A stretch of DNA of 38,058 nucleotides, from positions 1-38,058 of the IMG/VR virus record IMGVR_UViG_3300049489_001225, one strand, 5' to 3'. Of this stretch, positions 1,315-36,812 are shown in pieces. Within the stretch, counting starts at the first letter, position 1, and each line of letters begins with the position of its first letter. Source of the DNA: a virus. Made by a program: the position numbers and the translations under genes. The notes under the pieces are model-generated. The model was not told where the DNA came from. It saw only the letters and a program-made list of their open reading frames with translations, and ran no database searches.

Positions 1315-1327
1315 AAAGATTGCTACT
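1315..1327 (-). promoter_or_regulatory. Late-type motif before tape measure
   Basis: The minus strand reads GTAGCAATCTTT here, 15 bases before the ATG at 1299. It is a member of the GAC(G/T)YAATCTT family found before minus-strand structural genes, and it overlaps the stop codon of the upstream chaperone gene. Confidence 0.5.
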
Positions 1328-1859
1328 TGGGACTCTTTGGTGGCGGTGCCATGGTCCCAAAGCCCTCTAACTCCCTCTCAAATTCAGAGGCGTCCATAAA
1401 TTTGATATTGACGTCCGGCTCTAACTTCAGCGAACTCTCGCTAGGTAGCTCAGCTTCAAGGCGGTCTTTATACGAAAACATCGAGGGAGTCTTGGGGGCT
1501 TCCTTCAGTTGTGACAGCTTTTTCTTTTGCTCTTCCCTGCGAGTTTCTGCAGCGATTTGTTGAGCAAAATCAAAGCTTTCTGCGTCTTCTGCATCTTTTT
1601 GACGCTGCCTCTTCTTTCGCTCTTCCTCTGTTTCCAGAAGACCCCGAAGAGCTTCCTGGCGCTCTTCTTCAGACAGCTCTTCGTAGGTAGATTCGTAGTA
1701 CGCGGTCATGATGTCCTCTTCCGGCAACTCATCCACCAAATGTAGCGGAGTATGGAAGGTCGTACTGTACCATCGACAAATCTGTCTGTACCGAGCTGCC
1801 CCATCAGGGGCCATGACAGCCTGTAGGGCTAGTAGTCGTAGGCTGTCGTGGTAAATCAT
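1323..1859 (-). CDS. Tail assembly chaperone, second reading frame (GT-like extension)
   Basis: 178 residues: an N-terminal helical part, then a very charged Glu/Lys/Arg-rich coiled-coil-like centre (about residues 50-125) and a Pro/Lys-rich end (APPPKSPK). It lies between the first chaperone frame and the tape measure, like the lambda G-T extension that holds the tape measure during tail assembly. Its ATG overlaps the upstream stop (ATGA). The upstream frame ends CAA AAA TGA; a -1 slip on the A run would read straight into this frame. So it may be made both alone by re-initiation and as a fusion. Role assigned by synteny and composition. Confidence 0.65.
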   Translation of the reverse strand: MIYHDSLRLLALQAVMAPDGAARYRQICRWYSTTFHTPLHLVDELPEEDIMTAYYESTYEELSEEERQEALRGLLETEEERKKRQRQKDAEDAESFDFAQQIAAETRREEQKKKLSQLKEAPKTPSMFSYKDRLEAELPSESSLKLEPDVNIKFMDASEFERELEGFGTMAPPPKSPK

Positions 1860-2239
1860 TTTTGGGCCGCTAAGGCTTCTTTGGCTGCTTCTGACTTCTT
1901 GAGAACGGCTTCAATGGCCTCGCGCTCAATTCTAGTTACGTTGTCGTAGACGGCTGCGACCGGCGCTTCGTCTAGCAGATTGACGCCATTGCCGGAGTCC
2001 TTCCACCAGCTGGGGGCCTCAACGATGTGGACCCAAATCTTCGAGAAAACTAAGGACACATTGAGGGCGTCATCACTGGCCCCCTCCGCTTTTCCACCCA
2101 ATAAATCTCGACGCAACTGGTCTCGACGCAACTGGTCTCGATGGCTCAACCTAGGAATAGCCTTAAAAACCCCCTTGAAATTTTCGCCGGTGGTTTCACC
2201 ATCCACAGAAACACTGAATTCTACTGGAATATTAGCCAT
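1856..2239 (-). CDS. Tail assembly chaperone, first reading frame (G-like)
   Basis: 127 residues beginning MANIPVEFSVSVDGE, a compact beta-rich N-terminus followed by a helical end (REAIEAVLKKSEAAKEALAAQK). It is the first gene of the chaperone and tape-measure set. The start has GGAG nine bases upstream. A tandem 15-base duplication gives DQLRRDQLRRD near residues 35-45. It ends at an A-rich slip site overlapping the next start. It is separated by about 17.7 kb from the tail tube gene that normally sits just upstream, because an opposite-strand gene block lies between. Function is inferred from position and the overlapping-frame arrangement. Confidence 0.6.
   Translation of the reverse strand: MANIPVEFSVSVDGETTGENFKGVFKAIPRLSHRDQLRRDQLRRDLLGGKAEGASDDALNVSLVFSKIWVHIVEAPSWWKDSGNGVNLLDEAPVAAVYDNVTRIEREAIEAVLKKSEAAKEALAAQK
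2106..2135. repeat. Tandem 15-bp duplication in chaperone gene
   Basis: Two perfect copies of TCTCGACGCAACTGG lie side by side and in frame, duplicating DQLRR in the protein. Confidence 0.9.
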
Positions 2240-2279
2240 TTATATCTCCATTTGGTGCGGGACTCTGAGGGATTTCTCT

Positions 2280-2298
2280 ACCTCGGTGCATCCGAGGT
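2280..2298 (-). other. Hairpin in leader of chaperone operon
   Basis: A 7-bp perfect inverted repeat, ACCTCGG / CCGAGGT, with a 5-base loop. It lies between the late-type motif at 2300 and the ATG at 2239, so it would be in the 5' leader if transcription starts at the motif. It is not followed by a T run, so it is not an obvious terminator. Confidence 0.5.
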
Positions 2299-2299: not shown

Positions 2300-2312
2300 T
2301 AAGATTACCGCG
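2300..2312 (-). promoter_or_regulatory. Late-type motif before chaperone gene
   Basis: The minus strand reads GCGCGGTAATCTTA. It matches the core YAATCTT(T/A) but lacks GAC in front. It lies about 60 bases before the ATG at 2239, the longest spacing of the family, and back to back with the plus-strand promoter at 2336. Confidence 0.4.
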
Positions 2313-2890: not shown

Positions 2891-3098
2891 GAAAAAGAAA
2901 ACCCGAGCTAAACTGGACGAAATAATCCTACAGCTGGACGGACACATCTATCTGATTGAGAAGAGCGGGCGGCGTACGAAGAAGACTGAGATTGATGGAG
3001 AGCTGGTTCTGAAGATGCTGATAGGGGCCATTGAAAGAGGGGTCGCCCTGGCAGAACAGGAAGTGGAGAGACGAAGGAGCTTGCACGATGAGTCATGA
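2877..3098 (+). CDS. Hypothetical small basic protein
   Basis: 73 residues. The start is very Lys-rich (MTTAKKKKTRAK); the rest alternates short strands (IILQLDGHIYLIEKSG) with a helix (EIDGELVLKMLIGAIERGVALAEQEVERRR). It overlaps the genes on both sides by 14 and 11 bases, so it is part of the same translational chain leading into the Thg1-like gene. The basic N-terminus could bind nucleic acid, but that is a guess. Confidence 0.65.
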   Translation: MTTAKKKKTRAKLDEIILQLDGHIYLIEKSGRRTKKTEIDGELVLKMLIGAIERGVALAEQEVERRRSLHDES

Positions 3099-3849
3099 TA
3101 GCCTGGGCGACCGCATGAAGGCGTACGAAGATGTTTCACGGGTCCGCCTGACAACAAAGCTGCCCGTCATCATCCGACTTGATGGTAAGGCGTTCCACAC
3201 CTACACTCGGGGGCTCAAGCGTCCTTACGACGAATCGTTGATGCGGGTGATGAATCTTACCGCCATGTACCTCTGCAACAATGTGCAAAACTGTGTCATG
3301 GCCTACACCCAGAGTGATGAAATTAGCCTGCTCTTGGTCGACTACGGCAGCATTAAGACTAGCTCGTGGTTCGACAACAACCTTCAAAAGATGGTAAGTA
3401 TAGCCGCTGGCATGGCCTCTGCCTTTTTGACAGCAAGGAGTGATGAGATTTTCCCTGAGATTCGCCTGGCAACCTTCGACGCACGCGCCTTCATCCTTCC
3501 ACAGCACGAGGTGCAGAATTACTTTTTGTGGCGCCAGCAAGATTGGAATCGTAACAGCCTGAGCATGCTCGCCCAGAGTCTCTATAGCCACAAGGAGCTG
3601 CAAGGCAAGGACAGGGCCGAACAGCACGAGATGTGTTTTCGGAAGGGCCATAATTGGGCGACCCTTCCCTCTCACATTAAGGACGGTAGGGTCGTGCTGA
3701 AGCGTCAGGTCGAGCGCCCCTTCGCGCACGATGATTCCCAGGGCAATCGGGAGACCGGTACCGTACTCCGAAGCGAGTGGTACGTGCCCGAGACTACGCC
3801 CATCTTCAGCCTTGACTCGGACTTCATTAAAGGGCTGGTGCTGCCATGA
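3088..3849 (+). CDS. Thg1-like 3'-5' RNA polymerase (tRNA-His guanylyltransferase family)
   Basis: 253 residues from the ATG at 3088, preceded by GAAGGAG. The Thg1 palm core is clear: IIRLDGKAFH with a metal-binding Asp at residue 32, the second carboxylate in TQSDEIS (Asp77), then FDARAF and WRQQDWNRNS. Family members add nucleotides in the 3'-to-5' direction to tRNA 5' ends using triphosphates. The eukaryotic HINNLYN-type motif is replaced by RNS, as in the bacterial and phage Thg1-like proteins that repair 5'-truncated tRNAs rather than only adding G-1 to tRNA-His. Together with the RNA ligase (5996) and kinase-like protein (9062) it suggests tRNA repair. The family call is firm; the substrate is inferred. 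Confidence 0.9.
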   Translation: MSHDSLGDRMKAYEDVSRVRLTTKLPVIIRLDGKAFHTYTRGLKRPYDESLMRVMNLTAMYLCNNVQNCVMAYTQSDEISLLLVDYGSIKTSSWFDNNLQKMVSIAAGMASAFLTARSDEIFPEIRLATFDARAFILPQHEVQNYFLWRQQDWNRNSLSMLAQSLYSHKELQGKDRAEQHEMCFRKGHNWATLPSHIKDGRVVLKRQVERPFAHDDSQGNRETGTVLRSEWYVPETTPIFSLDSDFIKGLVLP

Positions 3850-4100
3850 CCAAGCGTGCGACCAGGGCCGACCTACAGAGCCGCGTCGAAGCAATGCGCG
3901 ATAAATTGCAGCCCACCTTCCGTGATTGTCTCAGCCTTGATGAGATTCAAACGATGGCCATCCAGCGGGTGCGAGAGGAGCTGGAGGCCCACCTCGAAGA
4001 GGACCTGAAGTATGGCAACTGTTGGAGACTAGCTCGATACTGCAATGGGCCCCTGCAGGCAGCGGCCGTCTTGACCCTGTTCAACTCGATCTACAGATGA
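3846..4100 (+). CDS. Hypothetical helical protein coupled to Thg1-like gene
   Basis: 84 residues, almost all helix-forming and acidic (VREELEAHLEEDLKYGNCWRLARYCNGPLQAA), with a basic start. It begins in a 4-base ATGA overlap with the Thg1-like gene, so its translation is probably coupled. No known domain recognised. Last gene before a 267-base gap with a terminator-like hairpin, so it likely closes the first plus-strand operon. Confidence 0.65.
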   Translation: MTKRATRADLQSRVEAMRDKLQPTFRDCLSLDEIQTMAIQRVREELEAHLEEDLKYGNCWRLARYCNGPLQAAAVLTLFNSIYR

Positions 4101-4217
4101 TGTGCCTAACGAGCTGCCCGAATCCCCATGTTGGTTAAGACAGCCGTTAGAGAAAGCCGTGGCAACCAGGTGGTAACATCCAGGACGTGTCGGCGCCCAT
4201 ACCGACCAAACCGGCGA

Positions 4218-4245
4218 GCTGGGGTTGGAATTCCCCAGCACTTTT
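4218..4245 (+). terminator. Possible rho-independent terminator after Thg1-like operon
   Basis: A perfect 7-bp stem, GCTGGGG / CCCCAGC, with an 8-base loop, followed by ACTTTTG. The T run is short, so termination may be partial. Placement between an operon end and a new promoter supports the call. Confidence 0.45.
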
Positions 4246-4331
4246 GCGTCCCCTTCCGTCTATCCCGGGGCGGAGTTAGGTGAATACGGACCCCTTCCGC
4301 AGTAAGGGAGGCTAGGAACCGACCGGGGCAT

Positions 4332-4361
4332 TTGACATGTCCAATCAGACAATGGTACAAA
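4332..4361 (+). promoter_or_regulatory. Early-type promoter P2 (leaderless)
   Basis: A consensus TTGACA, an 18-base spacer ending TGG, then TACAAA. The -10 box ends 6 bases before the ATG at 4368. The segment GGTACAAATCGCCCATG nearly matches the one at P5 (17131). Confidence 0.7.
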
Positions 4362-4367
4362 TCGCCC

Positions 4368-4784
4368 ATGACCACCGAGACCGCAGTCATTCAGGAGTTT
4401 AGGATTCCAGATGCCAATCTCTCTGCTTTGCAAGAAAAAATCGCCAAGCTCTCCAAGAAGGCTATGAAACTGGTCGGTCAACCCATCACGTTGGCCGTGG
4501 TCAAGACCTTTGATGTCGAGCGTACCAAGCGCAATTTCAACACCGGCAAGGAAGAGGGAACTGGCCAATTCGACAGATTCCACACAGTTACAGTCTCGGG
4601 GCCGCGTCCCAAAATCAACGGTTGGGTTTTTTCAGCCGCGCTGGATGTGGTAGATGTTGACGGTGAGAAGGCGGTACTCGTTCGTAATGCTCCTGGGGAG
4701 ACTGTGCCTACCCATTTCCGGTCCCGCGTTGAAGGATGTGACCATTGCCACACCGCCCGAACGCTCGTAAGCTCGACGGCGTAA
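4368..4784 (+). CDS. Truncated CDHC zinc-motif protein (N-terminal part only)
   Basis: 138 residues from the leaderless ATG after P2. I recognise, without a firm name, a phage and bacterial hypothetical family: a first part (LSALQEKIAKLSKKAMKLVG, TVTVSGPRPKINGWVFSAAL), then CDHCHTAR, where relatives continue with an Arg-rich strand and a much longer C-terminal half. Here the reading stops seven residues after the CDHC motif region. Past the stop, in the same frame, 4785-4853 reads PPGAAKKAAKELAAAKS and a second stop, the kind of Ala/Lys tail that could end such a protein. This suggests an internal deletion that left the head and tail of a longer gene. The truncation is inferred from memory of the family. 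Confidence 0.6.
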   Translation: MTTETAVIQEFRIPDANLSALQEKIAKLSKKAMKLVGQPITLAVVKTFDVERTKRNFNTGKEEGTGQFDRFHTVTVSGPRPKINGWVFSAALDVVDVDGEKAVLVRNAPGETVPTHFRSRVEGCDHCHTARTLVSSTA

Positions 4785-4878
4785 CGTCTACCGCCGATAC
4801 CGCCTGGAGCGGCGAAAAAGGCGGCTAAGGAGCTTGCGGCTGCCAAGTCGTAATGATAAAGAATGAGGAGAGGTCAAA

Positions 4879-5262
4879 ATGACTAAAAAGGTTTTGCTGC
4901 AGCAAATCGCCGATACCCTATATTTTCCCCCATTTCCAGCTACTCTAGCGATTGAGGACTCTCAACGGCGATTGAGGGTTCTCTCCAAAAGGGAGGTTCT
5001 CCCATTGTTGGAGGCCGCCATGGAAGGCGATGGCCGCAATGCAGTTTTCCTGCTTAAGTCTAATCTTCTGTCGACTACTGGAGTTCGAATGGCAGTCGAT
5101 ATCGGTATTTTCCCGTCTGTCAGAATATCCATAGACCTCGTATCTGGCAGCGCCAAAGAAGCGAGTGAAGTGGCTAGCGCCGCACTGGCTATGGCTGAGT
5201 TGGGCAAGGAATTAGAGTCCCTGCTCAGCTCTTTGGTCAAGCTGGAACTGGAAGTGCTGTGA
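4879..5262 (+). CDS. Hypothetical protein
   Basis: 127 residues with a good ribosome-binding site (GAGGAGAGG) before the ATG. A mixed alpha/beta first half (LSKREVLPLLEAAMEGDGRN, VRISIDLVSG) is followed by a long Ala/Leu/Glu-rich helix to the end. No family recognised. It ends in a GTGA overlap with a small membrane protein gene. In contrast to the gene before it, translation here is by normal initiation. Confidence 0.65.
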   Translation: MTKKVLLQQIADTLYFPPFPATLAIEDSQRRLRVLSKREVLPLLEAAMEGDGRNAVFLLKSNLLSTTGVRMAVDIGIFPSVRISIDLVSGSAKEASEVASAALAMAELGKELESLLSSLVKLELEVL

Positions 5263-5543
5263 ATGTTTTTGACGTCATAGTCGCCCCATTTGTATCAGGC
5301 TTGACCATCGACGTCTTAGGAACGCTGGTATTTCACTACACCAATAAGAATCGGGCGGTGGCGGCAGCTTCTGTTAACACCCTTCTCCAGGGTCTTTGGG
5401 TTTTTGTTTTTGTTGACGTAAGCGACGACCACATTCGCGCCATCCCCTACCTGCTGGGAATCTGGATTGGTGGATTAATTGGAATTGCATTCAAAAAGAA
5501 ATTAGAGTACCATTCAGTAACCCCCGTAAGGGCTAACCCGTAG
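5259..5543 (+). CDS. Small integral membrane protein (about three helices)
   Basis: 94 residues from a GTG that overlaps the upstream stop (GTGA). Hydrophobic segments lie near residues 4-25, 36-53 and 62-77, separated by charged turns (HYTNKNRA, DVSDDHIR), with a Lys-rich KKKLEYH after the last. This resembles small phage membrane proteins of unknown role. The fold suggests an inner-membrane location. It is not placed with lysis genes, so I do not call it a holin. Confidence 0.6.
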   Translation: MNVFDVIVAPFVSGLTIDVLGTLVFHYTNKNRAVAAASVNTLLQGLWVFVFVDVSDDHIRAIPYLLGIWIGGLIGIAFKKKLEYHSVTPVRANP

Positions 5544-5561
5544 TAAACACAATAGGAAAGT

Positions 5562-5807
5562 ATGAACAATAAACCAACAACATTGAAGGTCCGCATTGCC
5601 AATCTGCTCCCCGACGTGAAAGAGGGGCGCCGTGGTTTTACCACACGTCAAATCGTAGCTCGTCTGAACTCCTCCACCCGTTTCTCGTCCGTAGCCAACG
5701 CTACCGTTCGCGGTCGACTCAGTGAATTGGTGGCTGAGGGAACTGTCGTTCGTGAGACCAAGCCGAATGGCACCTCAACGTTTTACAACGCTTACAGGGC
5801 ATTCTAA
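5562..5807 (+). CDS. Winged-helix-like DNA-binding protein
   Basis: 81 residues with AGGAAAG before the ATG. The pattern is a helical start, GFTTRQIVARLNSS, NATVRGRLSELVAEGTVVRET, then a beta-wing-like KPNGTSTFYNAY. That layout is typical of small winged helix-turn-helix domains, with a recognition helix near residues 45-60. It could regulate phage or host promoters. The fold is inferred from the pattern and the target is unknown. Confidence 0.6.
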   Translation: MNNKPTTLKVRIANLLPDVKEGRRGFTTRQIVARLNSSTRFSSVANATVRGRLSELVAEGTVVRETKPNGTSTFYNAYRAF

Positions 5808-5999
5808 ATGAGAACAAGGGTCCTCGTCGAAGTTGTGTGCACCAGAGAGGTTGAAATCGTCATCGAGCACGAGGTGGACGAGGACCCTTGCGACCTCACT
5901 CCAGACGAGGAGCTGGAGGCAGTCTCGGCGGCTAATTTTCTCAGTCGCCCCGACTGGATTGTCTCCTCGGTGCGACCTCTGAGGGAGGAGGAAGAATGA
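5808..5999 (+). CDS. Hypothetical small acidic protein
   Basis: 63 residues, strongly acidic, with a strand-like start (RVLVEVVCTREVEIVIEHEV) and an acidic helix. Its ATG directly follows the stop of the winged-helix gene, and it ends in an ATGA overlap with the RNA ligase gene, so it is translated in the same chain. No family recognised. Such small acidic phage proteins are often inhibitors or DNA mimics, but nothing here proves that. Confidence 0.6.
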   Translation: MRTRVLVEVVCTREVEIVIEHEVDEDPCDLTPDEELEAVSAANFLSRPDWIVSSVRPLREEEE

Positions 6000-7087
6000 G
6001 CGAGCTACTTGCAGCCCTGAGAGGCGGTACTGAGACTCTTGGGTCTTTAAGTGTGAAGTACGCAATCAAGGTGAAGCCGCACCCTCTATTCCCTAATTTA
6101 GTGCAGCTAAAATACGACCAAATCAATTCCCCGATGGGGATTAGACTGGTGCAGGAGTGTCGTGGGGCCATCTTAGACACGACAGACGGCTTCGAATTTG
6201 TCGCCAGGCCCTTTGACAAGTTCTTCAATCAGGGCGAAGGGCACGCTGCGCCCATCGATTGGAGGACCGCCAGGGTTCAAGAGAAGCTCGACGGCTCATT
6301 GATGATTATGTACCACTACGCCGACGAGTGGCATGTCGCCAGCTCGGGCACACCCGACGCAGGCGGTGAAGTGAACAACGCCAACGGCACCACCTTCAAG
6401 AAGCTGTTCTGGGACACGTTCAAGATGATGGGCTACGACGCCGGCAACATAGACCCCGACCTCACCTACTGCTTCGAGCTGATGACCAAGTACAACCGGG
6501 TGGTGGTGCAACATCCAGAGCCCGAGCTGGTGTTGATCGGCGTGCGCAACCCCAAGACCGGCGAAGAGCTGCCTGTCAACTGGTACGACGCGAACTTCCG
6601 GGTGGCCAAGGAGTTCCCGCTGGGCTCCTTGGAGGAGGTCGAGGCTTCGATGGCGCACTTCTCCGGCCTGGAGCAAGAAGGCTATGTCGTGGTCGACGCC
6701 AGCTTCAACCGAGTAAAAATCAAGCACCCCGCCTACCTGGCCGCGCATCATATGGTCGGCAGCCTGAGCCCCAAGCGCTTGTTGGAAATAGTGCGTCAGG
6801 GCGAAACGCCGGAGATTCTAGCCTACTTCCCCGAGTGGACAGAGGAGGCTGACAATCTACGCGCTCTGCTCGAAGGTCTCGTTGTTGAAGCGTGCGTTGA
6901 ATACCAAAAGGTGCGTGACATTCCGGTCCAGAAGGATTTCGCATTGGCTATTCAGAACTCTCGTCACCGACCTGCCATGTTTGCCCTTCGTGCCGGCAAG
7001 GTTGAGACCTTTAGCCAGTTCTACCGTGAGTTGCGCCTAGAATCGCTGGCTGATATGCTGGGCCTCAGAGAGAAAACTGATGTGTAA
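5996..7087 (+). CDS. T4 Rnl1-type RNA ligase
   Basis: 363 residues, close to the 374 of T4 RNA ligase 1. The nucleotidyltransferase motifs appear in order: ECRG, motif I EKLDGS with the AMP-accepting Lys at residue 97, FELM (motif III), EQEGYVVVD (motif IV) and VKIKHP (motif V). A helical C-terminal domain follows. Such enzymes seal 5'-phosphate to 3'-hydroxyl RNA ends, classically repairing tRNA cut by host anticodon nucleases. A Thg1-like polymerase lies upstream and a kinase-like protein downstream. The central 6240-6780 uses markedly more G/C third positions than the ends of the gene, suggesting a mosaic origin. Confidence 0.9.
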   Translation: MSELLAALRGGTETLGSLSVKYAIKVKPHPLFPNLVQLKYDQINSPMGIRLVQECRGAILDTTDGFEFVARPFDKFFNQGEGHAAPIDWRTARVQEKLDGSLMIMYHYADEWHVASSGTPDAGGEVNNANGTTFKKLFWDTFKMMGYDAGNIDPDLTYCFELMTKYNRVVVQHPEPELVLIGVRNPKTGEELPVNWYDANFRVAKEFPLGSLEEVEASMAHFSGLEQEGYVVVDASFNRVKIKHPAYLAAHHMVGSLSPKRLLEIVRQGETPEILAYFPEWTEEADNLRALLEGLVVEACVEYQKVRDIPVQKDFALAIQNSRHRPAMFALRAGKVETFSQFYRELRLESLADMLGLREKTDV

Positions 7088-7140
7088 GTGGAGTTTGACC
7101 GGAAATCCGATGAAAAAATTTGAAATGGACTGGGATACAA

Positions 7141-7443
7141 ATGAATCTAAATGAAAGCTGGCAACGCTTCCCTGAAGCCCGCATTCGCATGCGGGAGCAG
7201 GATTTAACAACACTCGTTGAATCACTTGGGGATGGGGGGACCTTCATCAGCGGTCAGCCTCATGTTCAGCTGACTGATAATGGCGTCCTTATCAGTTTCA
7301 GCACTAACGCGGGGACTTTTGGGAAATTGATTGCGTTACCCATCGACGTGCTCATTCCCTACAAGCCCCCTCAAGAACCCGAGCAAGCGGAAGTTAACCT
7401 TCCAGAAGTTGGAGAATCAACCTCAATTGAGGTGGCGCCATGA
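7141..7443 (+). CDS. Hypothetical protein
   Basis: 100 residues from the ATG at 7141 (MNLNESWQRFPEARIRMREQ). An ATG at 7120 is also possible; neither has a good ribosome-binding site. The centre looks like a small beta fold (HVQLTDNGVLISFSTNAGTF) and the end is Pro/Glu-rich (PYKPPQEPEQAEVNLPEVGE), probably disordered. It ends in an ATGA overlap with the next gene. No family recognised. Confidence 0.55.
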   Translation: MNLNESWQRFPEARIRMREQDLTTLVESLGDGGTFISGQPHVQLTDNGVLISFSTNAGTFGKLIALPIDVLIPYKPPQEPEQAEVNLPEVGESTSIEVAP

Positions 7444-7619
7444 CCGATGCCCTGGCAGAAGACATTAAAATGCAAATCGAGACTCAGGGCGTGGCCAGTT
7501 ACAAGGTCAGCGACGGCGAGGTCTTCGTCTTCACCTCAGCTTTATTGGAGAAACTCCTGGAGAAGAGCCGCGAGCAGGGAAGGGTCGTTGTGTTTGTCAA
7601 AACGAGGCCGACCACATGA
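7440..7619 (+). CDS. Hypothetical small protein
   Basis: 59 residues, MTDALAEDIKMQIETQGVAS... to ...VVVFVKTRPTT. It starts in an ATGA overlap with the gene before and ends in an ATGA overlap with the gene after, which supports it as a real gene despite its size. Pattern: helix, strand (SYKVSDGEVFVFTS), helix (LLEKLLEKSREQG), strand. No family recognised. Confidence 0.65.
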   Translation: MTDALAEDIKMQIETQGVASYKVSDGEVFVFTSALLEKLLEKSREQGRVVVFVKTRPTT

Positions 7620-7849: not shown

Positions 7850-7866
7850 CAGCCGGAGATAGATTC

Positions 7867-8540: not shown

Positions 8541-8542
8541 GC

Positions 8543-9052: not shown

Positions 9053-9061
9053 AAACAGATT

Positions 9062-15749: not shown

Positions 15750-15757
15750 TAGATTAG
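15750..15757 (-). promoter_or_regulatory. Weak late-type motif before protease gene
   Basis: The minus strand reads CTAATCTA seven bases before the ATG at 15742. It matches YAATCT but not the last positions of the family consensus, so it is only a candidate. Confidence 0.3.
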
Positions 15758-18545: not shown

Positions 18546-18558
18546 TAAGATTGTCTCT
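18546..18558 (-). promoter_or_regulatory. Late-type motif before coiled-coil gene
   Basis: The minus strand reads GAGACAATCTTA, 16 bases before the ATG at 18529 and touching the stop of the upstream gene. Confidence 0.55.
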
Positions 18559-22941: not shown

Positions 22942-22967
22942 GTGAGAGAATCTCCTGAATTCTTAGA

Positions 22968-22979
22968 AAAGATTAAGTC
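22968..22979 (-). promoter_or_regulatory. Late-type motif before sheath gene
   Basis: The minus strand reads GACTTAATCTTT, 26 bases before the ATG at 22941, with AGGAG between the motif and the start. Confidence 0.6.
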
Positions 22980-24077: not shown

Positions 24078-26468
24078 GGAATTATCTCCTTTAGTCTCAG
24101 CGACTAAGATTACCTCTGACTTCATAGTCACCTGTGAAGCACCTGGCTTAAAGCCTGCATTTGCGGTACTATTCAGATGTGCCGTCAACATCGAATGGAT
24201 TTGCTTACCCTGTGGATGGGATTGCAGGGCCTGCAAGAAGGGCCCATGATTCATATGCGCAGTGATGTGCTTGCCACGGGATGGGTCACCCTTGGGCATC
24301 GCCTTTAGGGCTCCCATGAAACCTTCAACCGTATTGTGGAGTGCTGGACCAGCAGGTTTCCCTGCCGGGGACACAAGACCGGGAACATCCGCTTTGTTTA
24401 GCTTGGCGTGGTGTTTAGCGACGTAATCAAACCGCTCCTTGTGCTTCATGCGGTGCATCTTTTCGCTATGTCCAGTGTCGTTTAAATGGTGATAGGTTTT
24501 ACGATAGGACTCGGTAAGGTTGCGGGCAAATCTAGAATCATAGTATTTGTTCTCGCCAATCCTCATGCCCTGGGGCTGTCCTTTGGGCCTGCCGGGGCCT
24601 GCCTTCTCTAGCTCGGATTTACCTAACTTAGGCAGGAGGTCATGTAAGCCAGTGAGTCCCATTTTGTGCCCTGCATCGCGAACCATTTGGAGGGCTGTGT
24701 GGAGGGGGACCTTGTGACTATTGGGACTGAAGCCCTCACCACTAGGCTCGGTGAATTTACCAGTCACAGCGCGGTGAGCTGCGTCGTGCATGACGGTATT
24801 CAGCTCTTTGTGGAAGTCCTCGTCCTTGAGGTGGACTCCTATTTGCTGCGACAATTCTCGCTGTTTGTGGGCGGCCAGCCACTCCCAGTGGACGGCCCTC
24901 AGCGCCTCATTCATTGTCCTATGGTGACCCAACTTGCCAATTCGACGCCCTTCGCCGTAAATCTTGTTCAACTCGGGCAAAACCAAAGCATGAGATAGCT
25001 CGTGAATTTGGCGCCAGCCATCGGTGTAGTTTTCTTGACCGAAGTCCCCACCAGAAGAAGGGCTGGGGTCATACACCATTAGATGTCCGGTGTTGTAGTT
25101 ACGATTAGCTAAGTCGGGCTTCCCGTATTTCCCGCCTGCGTAGTACACCTTGAAGCCGTGGTCCTGAACTAGCCGTGAAATTTCGGGAAGCTTGCCGTGG
25201 TAGTTGTAGTGCAGCAGGTCAGGCTTCGAGCCAGGTTGGACTTGTCCGTAGGGAACAGCAAACTGCTTGTAGGTGCTAACCCCCACACCAGCCGCCTGGT
25301 CGTTCTGAGGCTTAGGTGGGGGCGTGTCCATGTGTGGATGGGAGCCGTCCGCTTTTATTAGCCCCGGTAGTTGTGGGGCGGCGTGGTCTTCTTCGTGGTG
25401 GCTACTGTGCCCATCGTGCCAATCGTAATTGTGAGGATGGTGGCGTACTGGTGTCTGATTCGCCAACAAATCAGCTACAGCGTTTTTCATCAGGTAGGCA
25501 GCCACCTCTGGCTCGAATTCTCGCTCTGCTTTTTTGGTTTGGCTAAATTTAATCCAATTCTGATGATTCGCTAAAGCGGCCCATGCTGGGTCTTTCTTGT
25601 CGTGGGAGGAGATAGGAGTGGTGGGATATCCGCTGACATCCATTAAGTTTTTGGTTGGAATCCGCTGACCAGCGGAGTTTCTAACAGTGGCAAGCATGAA
25701 ATCGTCGTATTTGCCTGGAGTGTGCTCTATAGCAAGACTCAACCCTCTAGCTCTCTGTTCTTCTGGTAAAAAATGACTGTAGTCGTAGACATTCTTCCCA
25801 CCACCGACCCCTCGCACGGAAAGGCGTGGTTCTTCAAAAGAGGGAATCTCACCGGTTGCAGCTCGGTTGCGAACTATAGGGTCTACTGGTTGCCCATGCA
25901 AAGCTGGAGTTTCGGGAGAATCCCATGTGGTATTGGCAATTGTAGGGATATGTAGCACGTCAGCCTTAGATCGGAACTTCTTACCACTTGGCTTTGGCGG
26001 GTTCAGGTTAATGACATCGCCTTTATTGAGTGGGTTCTCATGATGCATCTGATTCCAATCGAAATTGATGCGAAAATGCCCATGGCCAGGAATACTCGTG
26101 TAGTAATCGTTTGGAGGCTGTTCAAAGTGTTCGATGGGGTTTTGAGGGTCCGCTGAATGGTATTTTCCTTCATTTTCACCATTGGTATAGACCAGCCTAT
26201 GTTGCCCATTTTGGCTGTGAATCACACTCTCTTGGCCAAACATTTTGCCAAGCTGCTTCATTTGGTCTAAGGTGGCGCCATGGACTATATAGGAGCGTTC
26301 AGGCTCTTTGTATTTTCCTGAGGTAGGCTCAGCATGCAATCCCATCTGTTGCAGGGCACCGCCCAGCGCTTCGTGGCCGCCTTCAATTTGGGGCTGAAAC
26401 ATAGGCTTCTCTCCGGACAAAAGGCCGAAGGTGCTGCCAGAAAAAATAGGATGCTTTGGAAAGCCCAT
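22989..26468 (-). CDS. Large virion-type protein with HExxH metallopeptidase motif
   Basis: 1159 residues between sheath and other structural genes. Parts: an N-terminal region with EPTSGKYKEPERSYIVHG and GHGHFRINFDWNQM; a His-rich middle; QIHELSHAL with zincin motif H489-E-L-S-H493, followed by a helix with MNEALRAVHWEW that may supply a third ligand; basic helical segments; a CKDCGKEHALDKC zinc-knuckle-like site; and an Ala/Pro/Lys-rich tail. Such large multi-domain proteins are often carried in the head or tail and injected. An internal start (24077) may give a separate C-terminal product. The metallopeptidase is inferred from the motif alone. Confidence 0.65.
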   Translation of the reverse strand: MGFPKHPIFSGSTFGLLSGEKPMFQPQIEGGHEALGGALQQMGLHAEPTSGKYKEPERSYIVHGATLDQMKQLGKMFGQESVIHSQNGQHRLVYTNGENEGKYHSADPQNPIEHFEQPPNDYYTSIPGHGHFRINFDWNQMHHENPLNKGDVINLNPPKPSGKKFRSKADVLHIPTIANTTWDSPETPALHGQPVDPIVRNRAATGEIPSFEEPRLSVRGVGGGKNVYDYSHFLPEEQRARGLSLAIEHTPGKYDDFMLATVRNSAGQRIPTKNLMDVSGYPTTPISSHDKKDPAWAALANHQNWIKFSQTKKAEREFEPEVAAYLMKNAVADLLANQTPVRHHPHNYDWHDGHSSHHEEDHAAPQLPGLIKADGSHPHMDTPPPKPQNDQAAGVGVSTYKQFAVPYGQVQPGSKPDLLHYNYHGKLPEISRLVQDHGFKVYYAGGKYGKPDLANRNYNTGHLMVYDPSPSSGGDFGQENYTDGWRQIHELSHALVLPELNKIYGEGRRIGKLGHHRTMNEALRAVHWEWLAAHKQRELSQQIGVHLKDEDFHKELNTVMHDAAHRAVTGKFTEPSGEGFSPNSHKVPLHTALQMVRDAGHKMGLTGLHDLLPKLGKSELEKAGPGRPKGQPQGMRIGENKYYDSRFARNLTESYRKTYHHLNDTGHSEKMHRMKHKERFDYVAKHHAKLNKADVPGLVSPAGKPAGPALHNTVEGFMGALKAMPKGDPSRGKHITAHMNHGPFLQALQSHPQGKQIHSMLTAHLNSTANAGFKPGASQVTMKSEVILVAETKGDNSVAEKTYTLEEAQEQLFKATKEKMDAYAKEIEVLVSRELKKKQLIPRGHKHVAGVQASAGTEDLAGGRLNPPGVDDPLTAHKAELCKDCGKEHALDKCGEISTVKSELVDSKGDKKDNHTVSGSKGSEVKSKQVKAPGSGGSILPGSGCNQQVDAKEDGSPDGHQIKDTGIVCGRGKGPAEGTYPDHYKKEELDKAAKPPMAKPPSGQNMGTSVPTSTPAMKAELEKGFKTTAAQNAEPISAAHAAHVAQQGGASANTQLPSAAEQGERAEGFAAALAGEFQPPSKKPAAGGGTANPASVTLPGANLSSPRAAGVTRAAGVTQSPAKSAGPVMNAARPVKPGIFGKLLGKGEVKPDKKSKPKK
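23116..23151. repeat. Tandem 18-bp duplication
   Basis: Two perfect adjacent copies of GTGACTCCTGCGGCTCTA in frame, giving RAAGVTRAAGVT near the C-terminus of the large protein. Confidence 0.9.
24105..24114 (-). promoter_or_regulatory. Internal late-type motif
   Basis: The minus strand reads GGTAATCTTA inside the large gene, 27 bases before the internal GTG at 24077. Confidence 0.4.
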
Positions 26469-26478
26469 AGATACCCCT

Positions 26479-26490
26479 AAAGATTAACTC
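26479..26490 (-). promoter_or_regulatory. Late-type motif before large virion gene
   Basis: The minus strand reads GAGTTAATCTTT, 10 bases before the ATG at 26468, and overlaps the stop codon of the upstream gene. Confidence 0.55.
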
Positions 26491-27605: not shown

Positions 27606-27616
27606 TGGCCTAAGCC

Positions 27617-27629
27617 AAAGATTGCGGTC
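27617..27629 (-). promoter_or_regulatory. Late-type motif before structural gene
   Basis: The minus strand reads GACCGCAATCTTT, 11 bases before the ATG at 27605. Confidence 0.6.
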
Positions 27630-28151: not shown

Positions 28152-28159
28152 TCTTGAAC

Positions 28160-31384: not shown

Positions 31385-31897
31385 TCAAATCCTGGTCCTG
31401 GTTACGTTAGCGAAATTGTTACCAGTGTAGGTGTAGTCTTCCTGTATGCGGTAGACCTCTACTCCTGAAGCATCATACTGTATTTCGATAGTTTGGGAAA
31501 CTTTATTTCCGATGTAGGAGATTTGCTGCTCTCTGACTTTAGTGACTAGGGTATTGTCGGTCCAAGTCGTCAAATTGGTGATTTTGTTGGCGGTATAGGT
31601 TACAACATCATATCCAGTATCGACCAATCCGTGAGTGAGAGTGTCTAGGTTTTCGTGCTGGGTAGGAGTCAGTCCAGACCCACCAGCCGCCAATTGGGCC
31701 AAGGTGTAGGAGCCGGCCACACTATCCGTGAAGGTCATGTTGTTTGACGCATCACGACTTAGGAGGGTAGTCGCGTCGTTAGAGGTGTCGTTTTGGACGT
31801 GTACGCCCCGTACGTCGATGGCGTCGGCGTTTGGGTCGAAGTCCTCTTCAAAACCCTCTACTGGGTCGTTTTTGAGTGGTGGTATCCGATTGGCCAT
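31385..31897 (-). CDS. Fibre-associated structural protein (paralogue pair B)
   Basis: 170 residues. The start is acidic (DPVEGFEEDFDPNADAIDVR), then DASNNMTFTDSVAGSYTLAQ and a LTPTQHENLDTLTH helix common in fibre proteins, and a C-terminal TTWTDNTLVTKVREQQISYI domain similar to its neighbour's. It begins a new unit: a terminator and a late-type motif lie directly upstream. Confidence 0.6.
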   Translation of the reverse strand: MANRIPPLKNDPVEGFEEDFDPNADAIDVRGVHVQNDTSNDATTLLSRDASNNMTFTDSVAGSYTLAQLAAGGSGLTPTQHENLDTLTHGLVDTGYDVVTYTANKITNLTTWTDNTLVTKVREQQISYIGNKVSQTIEIQYDASGVEVYRIQEDYTYTGNNFANVTRTRI

Positions 31898-31914
31898 GGC
31901 TACGCCTCATCCAA

Positions 31915-31927
31915 GAAGATTGCGTCT
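31915..31927 (-). promoter_or_regulatory. Late-type motif before fibre cluster
   Basis: The minus strand reads GACGCAATCTTC, 17 bases before the ATG at 31897 and just after a strong terminator, the expected order for a promoter that restarts transcription. Confidence 0.6.
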
Positions 31928-31984: not shown

Positions 31985-33325
31985 TTAGCTCTTCTTGCCG
32001 AAGTCGTGGACTCGAACTTCGAGGTCGGTGGCATTCTTGGCAAAGCCCAATCGGATAGTACGGTCTCCACCAGTCAGAGCCGCATACAGGACGGGCTGAC
32101 CAGTAGCACCCAGGTAGTAGGGCACGTTGGCAGTCGCACCAGACAGAGCGCCGGCTGCATGGCCGGCCACAATCACCTGCACAGAGCCTGCAGCTGCGAC
32201 GGTGGACTTAGCAACCCCAATAACTCGGGCCTTGGCGTCAACGCTACAATCGCCAGTATCAACCGCGTTGTTGCCGCTAATGTACACCCCATCACCCAAG
32301 GTAACACCAGCGGTGGTGGTCCAGGCCTGCTCGAAATTGGCGTGGCTGTGCAAGCCAGAGGCATCCGAAGCGGGTCCAGCCGTCAAAGTGCCCAGATTGG
32401 CCGCAGTAACGTTGGTGCTGGTATTGGTGCCGTTAATCTTGAACTGCAGTGGCACGCCGACAACCTTAAGACCAGCGGCGGTGACGTCCAAAGTGTCGGG
32501 GGTATCATCGATTTCGATGCCGAGACCGTCAGAGAAGCGATTAATACCACCAGTGGCGCTGACAGCGGCTCGAAGCTTACCGCCGGCTCCAGCAGTGTCG
32601 AACTCAAGACCCGAGCTACCGCCGCCAGTCCCAGCCCCTTGAGCGTCGGCGGTGGTGTCCAGTTCGATATCCAGAGTTGAACCAGTCTTCAAGATACCGG
32701 CACCAGCGACGATAGACCCGGTACCCGTGAATTGAGTGAAGGTCAGAGCGGTAGTGTCAACGGTGATGGGGTCGTTGGTGATGAGGACCCAGCCAGTGTC
32801 GAGGTTGCTGGTACCCTCGCCAACAAACACAGCCATGCCATCAGTAACCTCAGCGTTAGCGTCGGCATCAGTGGCGCGAGTCAAAACAAATGGAGTTCCA
32901 GCCGAACCCGCATCCGTCACCACATAGATACCGTTGTCGGCTCCGGTGGTTTGGTCCTTAATCAGAACTCGATTGCCCGAGGCAGCCGCAACGCCGTCAA
33001 GCGACAGGGCCCCGTTGGCAGTTGCGGTCAGAGTTTTGCCAACGCCAGAACCAGAGGCGGTGACCGAGAGGTTGGCCGTCGAAGACAGACGGACAGACTG
33101 CTTCCAGTCCAAACCGGCGGCGTACGCCTGCACATAGTCACGATTAACGGCGTCAGTCCCAGTGGTGGGGTCGGCGACATTGACAATGCGCTGAGACGAG
33201 GCGTCGAAAGCGATACCGCCAACGCCGACAGCCGTCACCTTGCCCAGAGACAACTCGTCGGTAGCCGCTTGCTCTTCCGAGTAGCCCTCGGTAGGATTCA
33301 GAAATACAAATTTTCGAAGTGCCAT
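31985..33325 (-). CDS. Major fibre-like structural protein
   Basis: 446 residues, flanked by a late-type motif in front and a strong terminator behind, so probably abundant. N-terminus MALRKFVFLNPTEGYSEEQA, then DAVNRDYVQAYAAGLDWKQS, a Gly-rich NRVLIKDQTTGADNGIYVVT block typical of phage fibre and decoration proteins, a repeat-rich middle and a C-terminal beta domain (DAKARVIGVAKSTVAAAG, ANVPYYLGATGQPVLYAALT). That last domain pattern is shared with the 134-residue gene at 33860. Likely a tail fibre or capsid fibre subunit. Confidence 0.7.
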   Translation of the reverse strand: MALRKFVFLNPTEGYSEEQAATDELSLGKVTAVGVGGIAFDASSQRIVNVADPTTGTDAVNRDYVQAYAAGLDWKQSVRLSSTANLSVTASGSGVGKTLTATANGALSLDGVAAASGNRVLIKDQTTGADNGIYVVTDAGSAGTPFVLTRATDADANAEVTDGMAVFVGEGTSNLDTGWVLITNDPITVDTTALTFTQFTGTGSIVAGAGILKTGSTLDIELDTTADAQGAGTGGGSSGLEFDTAGAGGKLRAAVSATGGINRFSDGLGIEIDDTPDTLDVTAAGLKVVGVPLQFKINGTNTSTNVTAANLGTLTAGPASDASGLHSHANFEQAWTTTAGVTLGDGVYISGNNAVDTGDCSVDAKARVIGVAKSTVAAAGSVQVIVAGHAAGALSGATANVPYYLGATGQPVLYAALTGGDRTIRLGFAKNATDLEVRVHDFGKKS

Positions 33326-33349: not shown

Positions 33350-33380
33350 CGCACCCCAAAGATTAAGTCTCCTGGGTGCG
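33350..33380 (-). promoter_or_regulatory. Late-type motif inside a hairpin loop
   Basis: The minus strand reads GACTTAATCTTT at 33358-33369, 33 bases before the ATG at 33325. It sits in the loop of a perfect 7-bp inverted repeat, CGCACCC / GGGTGCG. The repeat could be an operator or a weak terminator for the gene upstream; the motif is among the best matches. Confidence 0.55.
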
Positions 33381-33413: not shown

Positions 33414-33860
33414 TCAATCGATTTTCGACAGGGTTCCGGTCAAATCATCATAGGCATACTCAGCCAACTTGATGCCCAATCTGCCTTCTATTTCTTGGAC
33501 TACAGCGGCATATTCCGTCTTAGCTTTAACTGCATCGTCTGTACGGTTCCTAATAAGGGCCATCATTCGTTGGAGGGCTCCTTCTGGGTCAATCTGTTTG
33601 AGCAGCTGGTCTCTCTTAAAGATTTCCAGCGCTCTCTCAGCATCAAATGCTCGAGCCTGAAACTGGGTCAGTTGGAGTCTGAATAGTTCATCCTTAGAGA
33701 GTTGCAGCGCTGTAGGTTCAACCGGCTGCTCCTCTTCCAAGGCTGACGCACTCAAGTAAGTCGGCACACTGACTGAGTACAGTTTTTTCTCAAAATCGCT
33801 CCGCAGGTCCACGGTTTCCCCAACGATCGGCTCTTCAAACTTCTTACTCTTACGTGCCAT
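33414..33860 (-). CDS. Coiled-coil structural or accessory protein
   Basis: 148 residues: basic start (MARKSKKFEEP), then long Gln/Glu/Arg-rich helices (ALQLSKDELFRLQLTQFQAR, GALQRMMALIRNRTDDAVKA). The heptad-like pattern suggests a coiled coil. It overlaps the upstream gene by one base. No family recognised; position in the structural run suggests a virion or assembly role. Confidence 0.6.
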   Translation of the reverse strand: MARKSKKFEEPIVGETVDLRSDFEKKLYSVSVPTYLSASALEEEQPVEPTALQLSKDELFRLQLTQFQARAFDAERALEIFKRDQLLKQIDPEGALQRMMALIRNRTDDAVKAKTEYAAVVQEIEGRLGIKLAEYAYDDLTGTLSKID

Positions 33861-34264
33861 TAACCCACCCTAGTTTTAAGGTCTTTTTGAAACTCCAACT
33901 TAATTCTAGCAGAATCTACAGCAACTCCTATGCTCTGCCAATACTTTCTCTGTCCAACCCCAGGAGTCGGGGGAGTTGCTGTAGGGACACCAGTATCGGA
34001 AACCCAATACACTCTACCTGGCGTAAGCCCGCTATACAAGGCGATTTCACCCTGAAATTGAATTACGGCTCTGGTAGGAGTCAATTTAGCTAGCACCACG
34101 GCTACAGCCGGCATCTTTGAATAATCGGATACGTCCGCCCTACTGACGGTGTAGTCCGCTCCAACCATAGCTGCACTTATACACACTAGGTCTCCTACAG
34201 ATTCAGCTACTGAACAAATGGCAGTGGCCAGAACGCTGTCGGTCCTCGGTCTAGAAATAATCAC
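33860..34264 (-). CDS. Structural beta-domain protein
   Basis: 134 residues from a GTG at 34264 with GGAG in front. Pattern: DLVCISAAMVGADYTVSRAD, AVIQFQGEIALYSGLTPGRV, YWVSDTGVPTATPPTPG, SIGVAVDSARIKLEFQ. This is the common phage beta domain found at the end of fibre and decoration proteins (YW/YYL..G plus IGVA), like the C-terminal domain of the 446-residue gene. Role inferred. Confidence 0.6.
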   Translation of the reverse strand: MIISRPRTDSVLATAICSVAESVGDLVCISAAMVGADYTVSRADVSDYSKMPAVAVVLAKLTPTRAVIQFQGEIALYSGLTPGRVYWVSDTGVPTATPPTPGVGQRKYWQSIGVAVDSARIKLEFQKDLKTRVG

Positions 34265-34287: not shown

Positions 34288-34309
34288 GAACTTACAAAGG
34301 AAGATTACC

Positions 34310-34606: not shown

Positions 34607-35472
34607 AAGGCTTGACTCACCGAGATGAGTATTTTATCCCGGATTCTACCTTCAAACTCCTTAAGGGCCCACTCCGCCGCTTCGTCCAAAAACTTCTTGG
34701 GTTCTAAGCCGGGATGTACCCAGCGTCCTTGGCCTTTCATTTTTGATGAGGCCACCCTGAAGGTCATGATGGACTTTTTCACGGATTCTTTGCCGGAAGA
34801 ATCTTTCACTTTAGTCTGGTAGACTCGCACGCCCTGCAGGTGCGGTATGCCGGTGGGTCCCTGTTTGACTTTCCCTATCGGCCCATGACCAGAACCGGGG
34901 CCCGGGCCGGTCTTGATGGGGGCCTTCATGATGTCGAAACTGTGTAGCAATCCGGTTTTAGGCTTGCCATCGGGGCCATTCTCCAGTTTGCCATACGGAA
35001 TCTGACGCTTAGCCATCTCTTTTTTGATGGTGTCCGTCAGGGAGGTTTGAGCTGGAGTCTGCTGGGTTTTTCCTTTTTTATGCTCAAAGGGAACGACGAT
35101 ATATCGGCTACCATCCTTGGCTGTCTTGGCTTTCGGCGACTTAAGGAGCCCGTCCAACATGTCGGTATTGGGCTTGATGCCCTCCTCGATAAACATCGCA
35201 TCCTGCCCCAACTCTATTACCCACGTCTCAGAGTCGACTTGGCGAAAGCTAAGAGCATTGAGGTATTTTTCTCTGGTGCTGTGTAGTGAAGCCTGCACCT
35301 TCTCTACAATATGAGCGTGAGTCTGGGCGGTCAAATCTCTAGCTGCATCATCGAGAGCTTTACGTACAGTACTATCAAAATTACGCACCATCGCGAGGAT
35401 AGGTCCGAAATCAAGATTAAAATGGATCACAGGCTCAGCCTCCCGGATTACGGCTTGAGGTAGGAGTGCCAT
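34603..35472 (-). CDS. HK97 gp10-like neck or tail-completion protein
   Basis: 289 residues. Early helices (VRNFDSTVRKALDDAARDLT), then YIVVPFEHKKGKT and a long basic/Gly/Pro linker, and RWVHPGLEPKKFLDEAAEWA near the end. The H-P-G-x-(x)-P/K-x-F-(L/M) pattern is the hallmark of gp10-type head-tail joining proteins. It lies two genes after the mCpol-like gene. Its start overlaps the end of the gene upstream by 38 bases. Confidence 0.65.
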   Translation of the reverse strand: MALLPQAVIREAEPVIHFNLDFGPILAMVRNFDSTVRKALDDAARDLTAQTHAHIVEKVQASLHSTREKYLNALSFRQVDSETWVIELGQDAMFIEEGIKPNTDMLDGLLKSPKAKTAKDGSRYIVVPFEHKKGKTQQTPAQTSLTDTIKKEMAKRQIPYGKLENGPDGKPKTGLLHSFDIMKAPIKTGPGPGSGHGPIGKVKQGPTGIPHLQGVRVYQTKVKDSSGKESVKKSIMTFRVASSKMKGQGRWVHPGLEPKKFLDEAAEWALKEFEGRIRDKILISVSQAF

Positions 35473-36280
35473 CGGGGCTCATCACTATGCCGCTGCGAAC
35501 CTGCCTCCACTTAGTCTTGCCCGTTTCTGGGTCTCTCAACTTGATTTCGCCGCCCTCGTGATTGGCGCTGGGTCCTGGGTCAACCTGAGAGCCTACGGGA
35601 AGGACCACTTGATGTCGTCCGGTTTTACCTGCCTCCAGGGCTGCCTTATCTACGCGATAGTAATCGGGATTTTCGGTAAGGTGGTCCTTGGCTACTTCCT
35701 TGGCTCTTTCTTCATCTAAGCCATGCTCCTCAATCTCCACCCTCATTCCTTCCGCTAGCTGTTCCGGGTCAAAAGAAGAGTCTTCTGTATCGTCACCTAC
35801 GCCACCCGGCATCAGGTCTTTGCGCAACTTATTTGCCCAATGTCCCTTGTGGTCGTGACAGTAATCTCCAGTAACTTGACGTTGGCATCGTCTTTCTCCC
35901 AACTTCCACTTACACCTGCCCACCTTCCCCTCCGCCTTCTGAACCTCTCCAGCAGATTGACCCCGCTCTCCGCGTGCCATAGCAATCATGGCCTGGACGA
36001 GGCCCACCACAGATTGATAGAGTTCGGGGTTGGTCTGGGACATCTGCTCCAAATCTGCAGTATGCGCTCTAACATCTTGAAGGATTTTAACTACTTGGGC
36101 GCGAATATCATCGGCTAGACCGCTTGGCTTTCCGGCGGGCTCTTTCTGTTGTTGCTGGGCCATCTGGTGGAACAGCTGCTCGTAGTCCGCGACTTTGGGT
36201 TCGACGACTTCAGGCGGATTGGGGGCATTCTCTATCTGCGCCACTGGCTTCGGCGACAGGTTTTTGGGGGGCAGCCGCAT
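35435..36280 (-). CDS. DUF5661-like structural protein with zinc motif
   Basis: 281 residues. Pro-rich start, helices (LADDIRAQVVKILQDVRAHT), a zinc-like RCKWKLGERRCQRQVTGDYC-HDH, then DLMPGGVGDD...FDPEQLAEGMRVEIEEHG...HLTENPDYY, which I recognise as a DUF5661-type domain of phage proteins, and a C-terminal SGIVMSPDGTPTSSRNPGG tail. Its first 71 bases overlap the mCpol-like gene in another frame at a C6A5 run; a +1 slip would fuse the two. In some relatives I believe these parts lie on one protein. Virion location inferred. Confidence 0.65.
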   Translation of the reverse strand: MRLPPKNLSPKPVAQIENAPNPPEVVEPKVADYEQLFHQMAQQQQKEPAGKPSGLADDIRAQVVKILQDVRAHTADLEQMSQTNPELYQSVVGLVQAMIAMARGERGQSAGEVQKAEGKVGRCKWKLGERRCQRQVTGDYCHDHKGHWANKLRKDLMPGGVGDDTEDSSFDPEQLAEGMRVEIEEHGLDEERAKEVAKDHLTENPDYYRVDKAALEAGKTGRHQVVLPVGSQVDPGPSANHEGGEIKLRDPETGKTKWRQVRSGIVMSPDGTPTSSRNPGG

Positions 36281-36794
36281 GATTCATGGAGGCACCAGAA
36301 AAACCCGCGTTGGAGCCGCTATTCATAGCTGGAGGAATGTCCTTACGCAAACCGACCTCGTCGGGTTTCAGATATTCGTCCTGTAGCTTCTGGTCTTCCG
36401 TCTTTTCCTTCAGTTTAGAGAGAATCTCATCTACCTCTGCCGTATAAAGCTGTATGCGGTTTCCCCCCTGCACCTTAGCCGCTAGCAGACTCCTGTCCGC
36501 TTCCGACATCTTAGTGCCCACCCCCACACTGCAGGTACTGCCTACGGCCGTTTCGTACTGCTCCCTAACGCTAGGCACCTCACTTAGGTATTCTGCTTCA
36601 ATTTCGATAGAGCCCTCGTCCCCACCCAAAGAGATGATAGAGCCGCCATGCGACTCGGCCCATGAACGCCAGATATCATTCCCACGCTCAATAGAGTGAG
36701 AGATTCTGCGGACTTCCTCCGGTGAATCGGCCAATCGGGCACGGCCAACCATCCTGCCTATATGGTCACCGTCAAAGGATACGAATAGTTTCAT
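36210..36794 (-). CDS. mCpol-like (minimal CRISPR polymerase) palm-domain protein
   Basis: 194 residues. KLFVSFDGDHIGRMVGRARL gives the first acidic site and SIISLGGDEGSIEIEAE the GGDE loop; CSVGVGTKMSEADRSLLAAK and GGNRIQLY follow. This is the pattern of the mCpol / GGDEF-like palm family, relatives of CRISPR Cas10 that may make cyclic nucleotides. Phages carry such proteins in their structural region. It is the first gene after the late-type motif at 36800. The reading frame ends after a C6A5 run shared with the next gene. No CRISPR array is present; the product, if any, is unknown. Confidence 0.7.
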   Translation of the reverse strand: MKLFVSFDGDHIGRMVGRARLADSPEEVRRISHSIERGNDIWRSWAESHGGSIISLGGDEGSIEIEAEYLSEVPSVREQYETAVGSTCSVGVGTKMSEADRSLLAAKVQGGNRIQLYTAEVDEILSKLKEKTEDQKLQDEYLKPDEVGLRKDIPPAMNSGSNAGFSGASMNHAAAPQKPVAEASGADRECPQSA

Positions 36795-36799
36795 AGGTC

Positions 36800-36812
36800 A
36801 AAGATTGCGTCT
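36800..36812 (-). promoter_or_regulatory. Late-type motif before mCpol-like gene
   Basis: The minus strand reads GACGCAATCTTT, only 5 bases before the ATG at 36794, the shortest spacing of the family. It is back to back with promoter P6. Confidence 0.6.

Follow-up and report, generated by a model that had tools for sequence, protein, structure and literature searches.

The virus record IMGVR_UViG_3300049489_001225 of IMG/VR, analysed here over positions 1 to 38,058 (the window), carries the short element YAATCTT upstream of its minus-strand genes, and the same element recurs in its relatives together with a phage gene for a sigma-like protein. We interpret YAATCTT as a -10-only late promoter element that would be read by the host RNA polymerase in combination with the phage sigma, with a probability of about 0.8. 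The motif, its bias in strand and position, its conservation, its register, and the occurrence of the sigma gene in all fuller genomes were obtained by computation on the genomes themselves.

The window and its relatives

The window, a 38,058-base record, consists of two gene blocks on opposite strands, with the plus strand carrying mainly small and metabolic genes and the minus strand mainly virion-type genes, including those for a tail sheath (phrog_279, E = 7e-30) and a head decoration-like protein (phrog_2647, E = 6e-28). No named phage matched window positions 1-25000 at the nucleotide level, and Rfam and tRNA scans gave no matches. The tail sheath protein is 47% identical over its full length to that of Myxococcus phage Mx1, its sole match, and shares 83% identity with the tail sheaths of two IMG/VR records of 168 kb (G001 and G002). 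The window represents part of the genome of an Mx1-like myovirus, which belongs to a family of large contractile-tailed phages. Together with G001, G002, Mx1, and eight others it forms a set of twelve genomes (GC content 34-65%), eleven of which are fuller; the IMG/VR records are possibly incomplete, and genes were called with a simple, self-written hexamer-based predictor. The late strand was assigned from the motif and structural genes, and in the window, G001, G002, and Mx1 it was fixed independently via annotated or homologous virion genes.

The element is concentrated upstream of late-strand genes

Analysis of the window revealed 15 copies of YAATCTTH compared with 6.0 expected from shuffled sequences, a count reached by none of 100 shuffles. 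Four lie on the plus strand (5061, 9824, 13342, and 21729), every one within a gene. Ten of the 11 exact minus-strand copies (listed below) lie no more than 65 nt before a minus-strand gene start, a zone that makes up 4.5% of positions (binomial P = 3.7e-13), in agreement with the initial annotation, which had described the motif before such starts. Each of the nine starts named there has an exact copy before it, and a good copy at 34300, before the gene start at 34264, had been overlooked; the further copy reported before an internal start at 24077 was recovered at 24105 and is kept in G001 and G002. The extended form proposed at first, with a GAC(G/T) prefix, did not hold up: GACNYAATCTTT with up to two mismatches is no commoner than chance. 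We rejected the prefix as a general element, since across the relatives only G at offsets -4 and -1 from Y remains.

The concern that the motif might be equally frequent within genes or on the other strand was answered by the relatives. Intergenic YAATCTTH occurs on the late and the other strand 24 versus 0 times in G001 and 28 versus 0 times in G002, and intergenic YAATCTT over the twelve genomes occurs 217 versus 56 times (P = 1.5e-23), a figure that is descriptive for those genomes in which the motif helped to define the strand. In a de novo 6-mer test on four core genomes, AATCTT ranks first upstream of late-strand genes (60 versus 2.7 expected), while TTGACA ranks first on the early strand. 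Alignment of the early strand at TTGAC revealed a TA-rich -10 hexamer at 17-bp spacing (TTGACA-N17-TAnnnT), which serves as an internal positive control and indicates that the method is able to find promoters. AATCTT also ranks first to fourth on the late strand of the other large relatives, with the exception of G011, where it is weak. With a position weight matrix score of at least 12, sites were found before 19 of 37 late-strand genes in G002 and 17 of 36 in G001, compared with 0 of 75 on the early strand; the corresponding values for Mx1 are 7 of 46 and 0 of 88. As the matrix was trained on consensus sites, the early strand is the informative control.

Orthology was examined by locating the protein downstream of each window site in the relatives and then reading the DNA upstream of it. 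For all ten window sites with a usable protein, G001 and G002 each carry the motif at the ortholog; the spacing is frequently kept, and many sites recur in more distant relatives. The internal site at 24105 is followed by AAAGGAG and a GTG at 24077, and G001 and G002 retain both the internal Shine-Dalgarno sequence and the GTG. In G010 the gene is split at the equivalent point, with the upstream stop codon TAA sitting within the motif. This retention and the split support a real internal promoter and start at 24105. A gene split in Mx1 was considered as the counterpart of this site and rejected, the matching split being that of G010.

Register of the element and predicted leaderless transcripts

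The pooled alignment contains no conserved block upstream of about offset -6, and hence no -35 element, as had been noted for the window; G is preferred at offsets -4 and -1. Of 161 sites that have no start codon nearby, 69 show a pyrimidine-purine (YR) step downstream of the element at offset 12-13, counted from Y, compared with a mean of 36 at other offsets (P = 5e-9). ATG begins at offset 13 in 38 of 259 sites, compared with a mean of 6.3 (P = 1e-18), and few ATGs lie nearer. The YR step and the ATG peak together place the predicted start 7 nt past the last T, which is the register of a -10 element. Taking offset 13 as +1 puts AATCTT at -12 to -7, with A-11 and T-7 retained; these two bases flip out and are captured by sigma-70 proteins.

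In about 15% of the sites the start codon falls exactly at the predicted +1, and the sequence predicts leaderless mRNAs for these genes. A Shine-Dalgarno-like stretch was found in 4 of the 38 sites of this ATG class, compared with 76 of 132 leadered sites. A broader proposal, which we advance tentatively and at slightly below even odds, is that the promoter sets the first codon in this lineage, and that a substantial and conserved class of late and virion genes is expressed from obligatorily leaderless mRNAs, with the A of ATG as +1, by means of -10-only promoters and a separate, stand-alone sigma2-sigma3 family without region 4.2.

A phage sigma-like protein as the candidate recogniser

A late promoter read by a phage-encoded factor or polymerase had been suggested at the outset, together with a search for a sigma-like gene. 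Our results favour the factor, as such a gene was found in all 11 fuller genomes. In Mx1 it codes for a protein of 335 aa (WNM70309) that carries the annotation putative RNA polymerase sigma factor, with a Sigma70_r2 match (E = 9e-4) that falls short of the Pfam cut-off and a weak PHROG sigma match. The homologs in G001 and G002 are approximately 41% identical to it, and a two-sequence profile detected homologs at 34 IMG/VR loci, as well as in G003 and G011. Comparison of a 26-sequence family profile with RpoD/SigA gave E values down to 4e-8, with the alignment running from region 2 to about residue 566 of 617 (RpoD of 7xya); by the region boundaries of RpoD, region 4.2 lies outside it. Sigma70_r4 gave no match at the sigma gene, and elsewhere in the genomes it matched just sub-threshold fragments. 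An AlphaFold2 model, predicted from an alignment that excluded the Mx1 row, has a mean pLDDT of 76.6, and its top Foldseek matches are sigma-A in initiation complexes (E = 2e-4). Except in G003, the motif is found mainly on the same strand as the sigma gene.

A search for RpoB-type polymerase (PF00562) in four genomes found none, with the control positive in 14 of 14 reference genomes, and we therefore rejected a phage multisubunit RNA polymerase. The search for a T7-type polymerase (PF00940) also gave no match and is uninformative, because its control was positive nowhere. At the head of the sigma operon, no host-type promoter was found with the pattern used.

These results suggest the following scheme, in which sigma binding, start sites, timing, and leaderless translation are predictions. 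The early genes, mainly on the opposite strand, would be read from TTGACA-N17-TAnnnT, presumably by the host RNA polymerase with its primary sigma. The phage would then make its own sigma-70-type protein of approximately 340-360 aa, which appears to comprise region 2 and probably region 3 and to stop near region 4.1; the helix-turn-helix of region 4.2, which reads a -35 element, would be missing. Together with the host core polymerase, this protein would recognise AATCTT at -12 to -7, aided by G at -14 and purines at -17/-18, and no -35 element would be needed because region 4.2 has been lost. Transcription would begin 7 nt downstream, at a purine after a pyrimidine, and would yield leaderless late mRNAs where the start codon coincides with the predicted +1. 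A sigma without region 4.2 paired with promoters without a -35 element is the simplest reading, from which we infer the binding.

Several observations weigh against this reading. The enrichment in G011 is weak (6 versus 4 intergenic copies), and no good site precedes several Mx1 late genes, among them that for the major capsid protein (19703); these genes must depend on other promoters or on long operons. G003 has its sigma gene on one strand and its motif-bearing genes on the other, and a search of the window found no sigma homolog. The Foldseek TM-scores are low (0.2-0.3), probably owing to flexibly joined domains in the model. The ATG peak may also partly reflect the choice of gene starts; the YR signal was computed without those sites.

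Alternative explanations for the element

The same motif and sigma could operate with a T4-like co-activator, either a sliding clamp or a gp33-type bridge, that couples late transcription to replication. We regard this as unlikely, even though the sigma lacks region 4.2, like T4 gp55, and is encoded near a helicase and a calcineurin-type phosphoesterase, just as T4 gene 55 lies in the gene 47 region. A review of T4 names the gp45 clamp as the activator (PMC2988020). However, the bacterial-type clamp PF02768 was not found in G001, G002, or Mx1, in a search that did not extend to T4 gp45-type clamps, and gp36 of phage phiEco32 uses a single-element promoter without region 4 (PMC8948821).

A host alternative sigma reading the motif, with another role for the phage sigma-like protein, is quite improbable. 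Sequence alone leaves room for host specificities beyond that of the primary sigma, but the same-host controls led us to reject a host-driven motif: Myxococcus phage Mx4 contains YAATCTT once in 50 kb and in none of its 30 upstream regions, and Myxococcus phage Mx8 contains none on its structural-gene strand, as a raw count. For the Mx8, T4, and phiEco32 pieces no upstream regions were called, and raw counts alone are usable. In addition, the motif is kept over phages of 34-65% GC with probably different hosts, always together with the phage sigma.

The motif might instead be an RNA or DNA element, such as a translation enhancer, an RNA processing site, or a replication or packaging signal. 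The fixed-offset ATG of the 38 sites would also fit a translational element, but most sites have a variable spacing of 6 to more than 60 nt, the 76 leadered sites noted above have their own Shine-Dalgarno sequence, and the YR step at 12-13 is present where a start codon is absent, which makes this explanation highly improbable. AAUCUU is also not complementary to the anti-Shine-Dalgarno sequence, which again speaks against a translational role. Chance or codon usage, suggested by the occurrence of AATCTT within genes on both strands, is negligible, being refuted by the strand and intergenic bias in 12 genomes, the ortholog-wise conservation, and the fixed register.

Predicted promoter sites in the window

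Under the preferred reading, a -10-only promoter for the phage sigma, the window contains the following candidate late promoter elements, all on the minus strand; for the exact copies, G001 and G002 both have an orthologous site unless otherwise stated.

1315..1322, minus: CAATCTTT, -10-like, with +1 predicted at 1309; upstream of ATG 1299 (frame broken in the window); counterparts, by inspection, at G001 128992 and rc-G002 75138
2300..2307, minus: TAATCTTA, with +1 predicted at 2294; upstream of gene 1856-2239; the G001 and G002 sites lie at 61-62 nt, and G007 and Mx1 have the site too
18546..18553, minus: CAATCTTA, with +1 predicted at 18540; upstream of gene 18122-18529
22968..22975, minus: TAATCTTT, with +1 predicted at 22962; upstream of gene 20422-22941 (tail sheath); orthologous site also in G005, G007, and G009
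24105..24112, minus: TAATCTTA, internal to open reading frame (ORF) 22989-26468, with +1 predicted at 24099
26479..26486, minus: TAATCTTT, with +1 predicted at 26473 (leader of 5 nt); upstream of ORF 22989-26468; orthologous site also in G005, G008, and G010
27617..27624, minus: CAATCTTT, with +1 predicted at 27611 (leader of 6 nt); upstream of gene 26484-27605
31915..31922, minus: CAATCTTC, with +1 predicted at 31909; upstream of gene 31385-31897
33358..33365, minus: TAATCTTT, with +1 predicted at 33352; upstream of the virion-type gene 31985-33325
34300..34307, minus: TAATCTTC, with +1 predicted at 34294; upstream of gene 33860-34264
36800..36807, minus: CAATCTTT, with +1 predicted at 36794, on the A of ATG (leaderless); upstream of the mCpol-domain gene 36210-36794
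15750..15756, minus: weak variant TAATCTA, 7 nt before ATG 15742 of the protease gene

The element at 31915 is directly preceded by a GC-rich hairpin with a T run, where the initial annotation had described a strong terminator. The weaker copy reported before the protease gene is present as a last-T variant and is not the exact motif; it is possibly a near-leaderless late promoter. Last-T variants also precede Mx1 late genes, with CAATCTA before the Mx1 tail sheath gene. ATG 1299 opens just 21 codons in the window, where the relatives have a full gene, so the window sequence probably carries a frameshift in this gene. More generally, the frames at 35435-36794 and at about 1250-1300, both on the minus strand, look broken relative to G001 and G002, which suggests frameshifts or assembly errors in the window.

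At the mCpol gene, the 6-nt spacing from the element to the start codon is identical in the window, G001, G002, G006, and G007. This late gene carries a minimal CRISPR polymerase (mCpol) domain (PF18182, E = 1.5e-13) and has orthologs in most relatives, including Mx1, with lengths of 449-467 aa in G001 and G002. A cyclic-nucleotide-polymerase-like protein among phage late genes is unexpected.

Other features of the window and its relatives

The early block of the window (3031-13088, plus strand) contains genes for a tRNA-His guanylyltransferase (phrog_4717, E = 2e-89), an RNA ligase, a polynucleotide kinase-like protein, and a nucleotidyltransferase, possibly an RNA repair set; an RNase H gene is also located in the plus-strand block. 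Five direct repeats of approximately CTGYYAAGTGCCGTTCA lie at L013:9804-10240 (G001 29804-30240) and in the matching G002 region, in the divergent intergenic region before the helicase-sigma operon, and are possibly an origin or a regulatory array. Immediately downstream of the sigma gene is a GroES-like frame, and next to the operon is a gene for GroEL (G001 33603-33974 and 27838-29580; Mx1 167113-168885); GroEL is annotated in Mx1, and the GroES and G001 GroEL labels were assigned by eye. A second abundant upstream motif, present on both strands as ATTCGCTATC in G008 (L098-L106) and as GATTCGATAGAA in G007 (L088-L097), possibly represents another promoter class.

Implications

A nearly uncharacterised phage lineage thereby gains a candidate late-gene switch, comprising a promoter sequence, a predicted start, and a probable recognition protein. 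The motif-sigma pair was found in Mx1 and in some ten relatives that are uncultured; Mx1 can be grown on Myxococcus xanthus, which makes direct testing feasible. YAATCTT may also flag late operons in uncultured genomes, where most virion genes lack annotation. The family would represent a further loss of -35 recognition in a sigma that has no detectable relationship in sequence to either T4 gp55 or phiEco32 gp36, a point relevant to whether -10-only phage sigmas have more than one origin. The leaderless class, if true, would offer a natural and clean system in which to test leaderless translation at late times of infection.

Comparison with known systems

The Mx1 genome paper contains no promoter analysis (PMC10720576), and a full-text search of open-licence literature for AATCTT together with late promoter returned no report of the element; the link drawn here from sequence between the Mx1 sigma and YAATCTT is new. 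WNM70309 is a direct member of the sigma family, and the same motif precedes Mx1 late genes.

Phage 7-11 likewise employs a late sigma (gp47) with the host RNA polymerase; its promoter is bipartite (GTAAtg-16-aCTA) and its sigma keeps region 4 (PMC8948821). T4 gp55 and the Mx1-like sigma each represent a small divergent sigma family of large contractile-tailed phages, and the -10-only late promoters of T4, like those predicted here, stand before virion genes. The T4 late element, TATAAATA, differs from the late-strand motif YAATCTT of the Mx1-like phages, as noted from the start. The two sigmas show no profile match (hhalign probability 0.7%), with T4 gp55 matching phrog_234 and the Mx1 and G001 sigmas matching phrog_351.

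Phage phiEco32 gp36 recognises the single element tAATGTAtA of the middle/late promoters without region 4, with the start 6-8 bp downstream (PMC8948821). The likeness extends to the missing -35 element and to early genes left, in the Mx1-like phages presumably, to the host sigma-70; the start predicted in the Mx1-like phages, 7 nt after the last T, would fall in the phiEco32 range. In contrast, the phiEco32 element contains AATGTA, its sigma has 214 aa compared with approximately 350 aa, and no homology is detectable between the two proteins (hhalign probability 0.1%); the resemblance of the Mx1-like sigma to RpoD extends from region 2 to near region 4.1, and many Mx1-like sites predict leaderless mRNAs. 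By analogy, the Mx1-like sigma, for which membership in neither family was detected, would work like T4 gp55 and phiEco32 gp36, and on the likenesses listed here phiEco32 gp36 is the best functional precedent.

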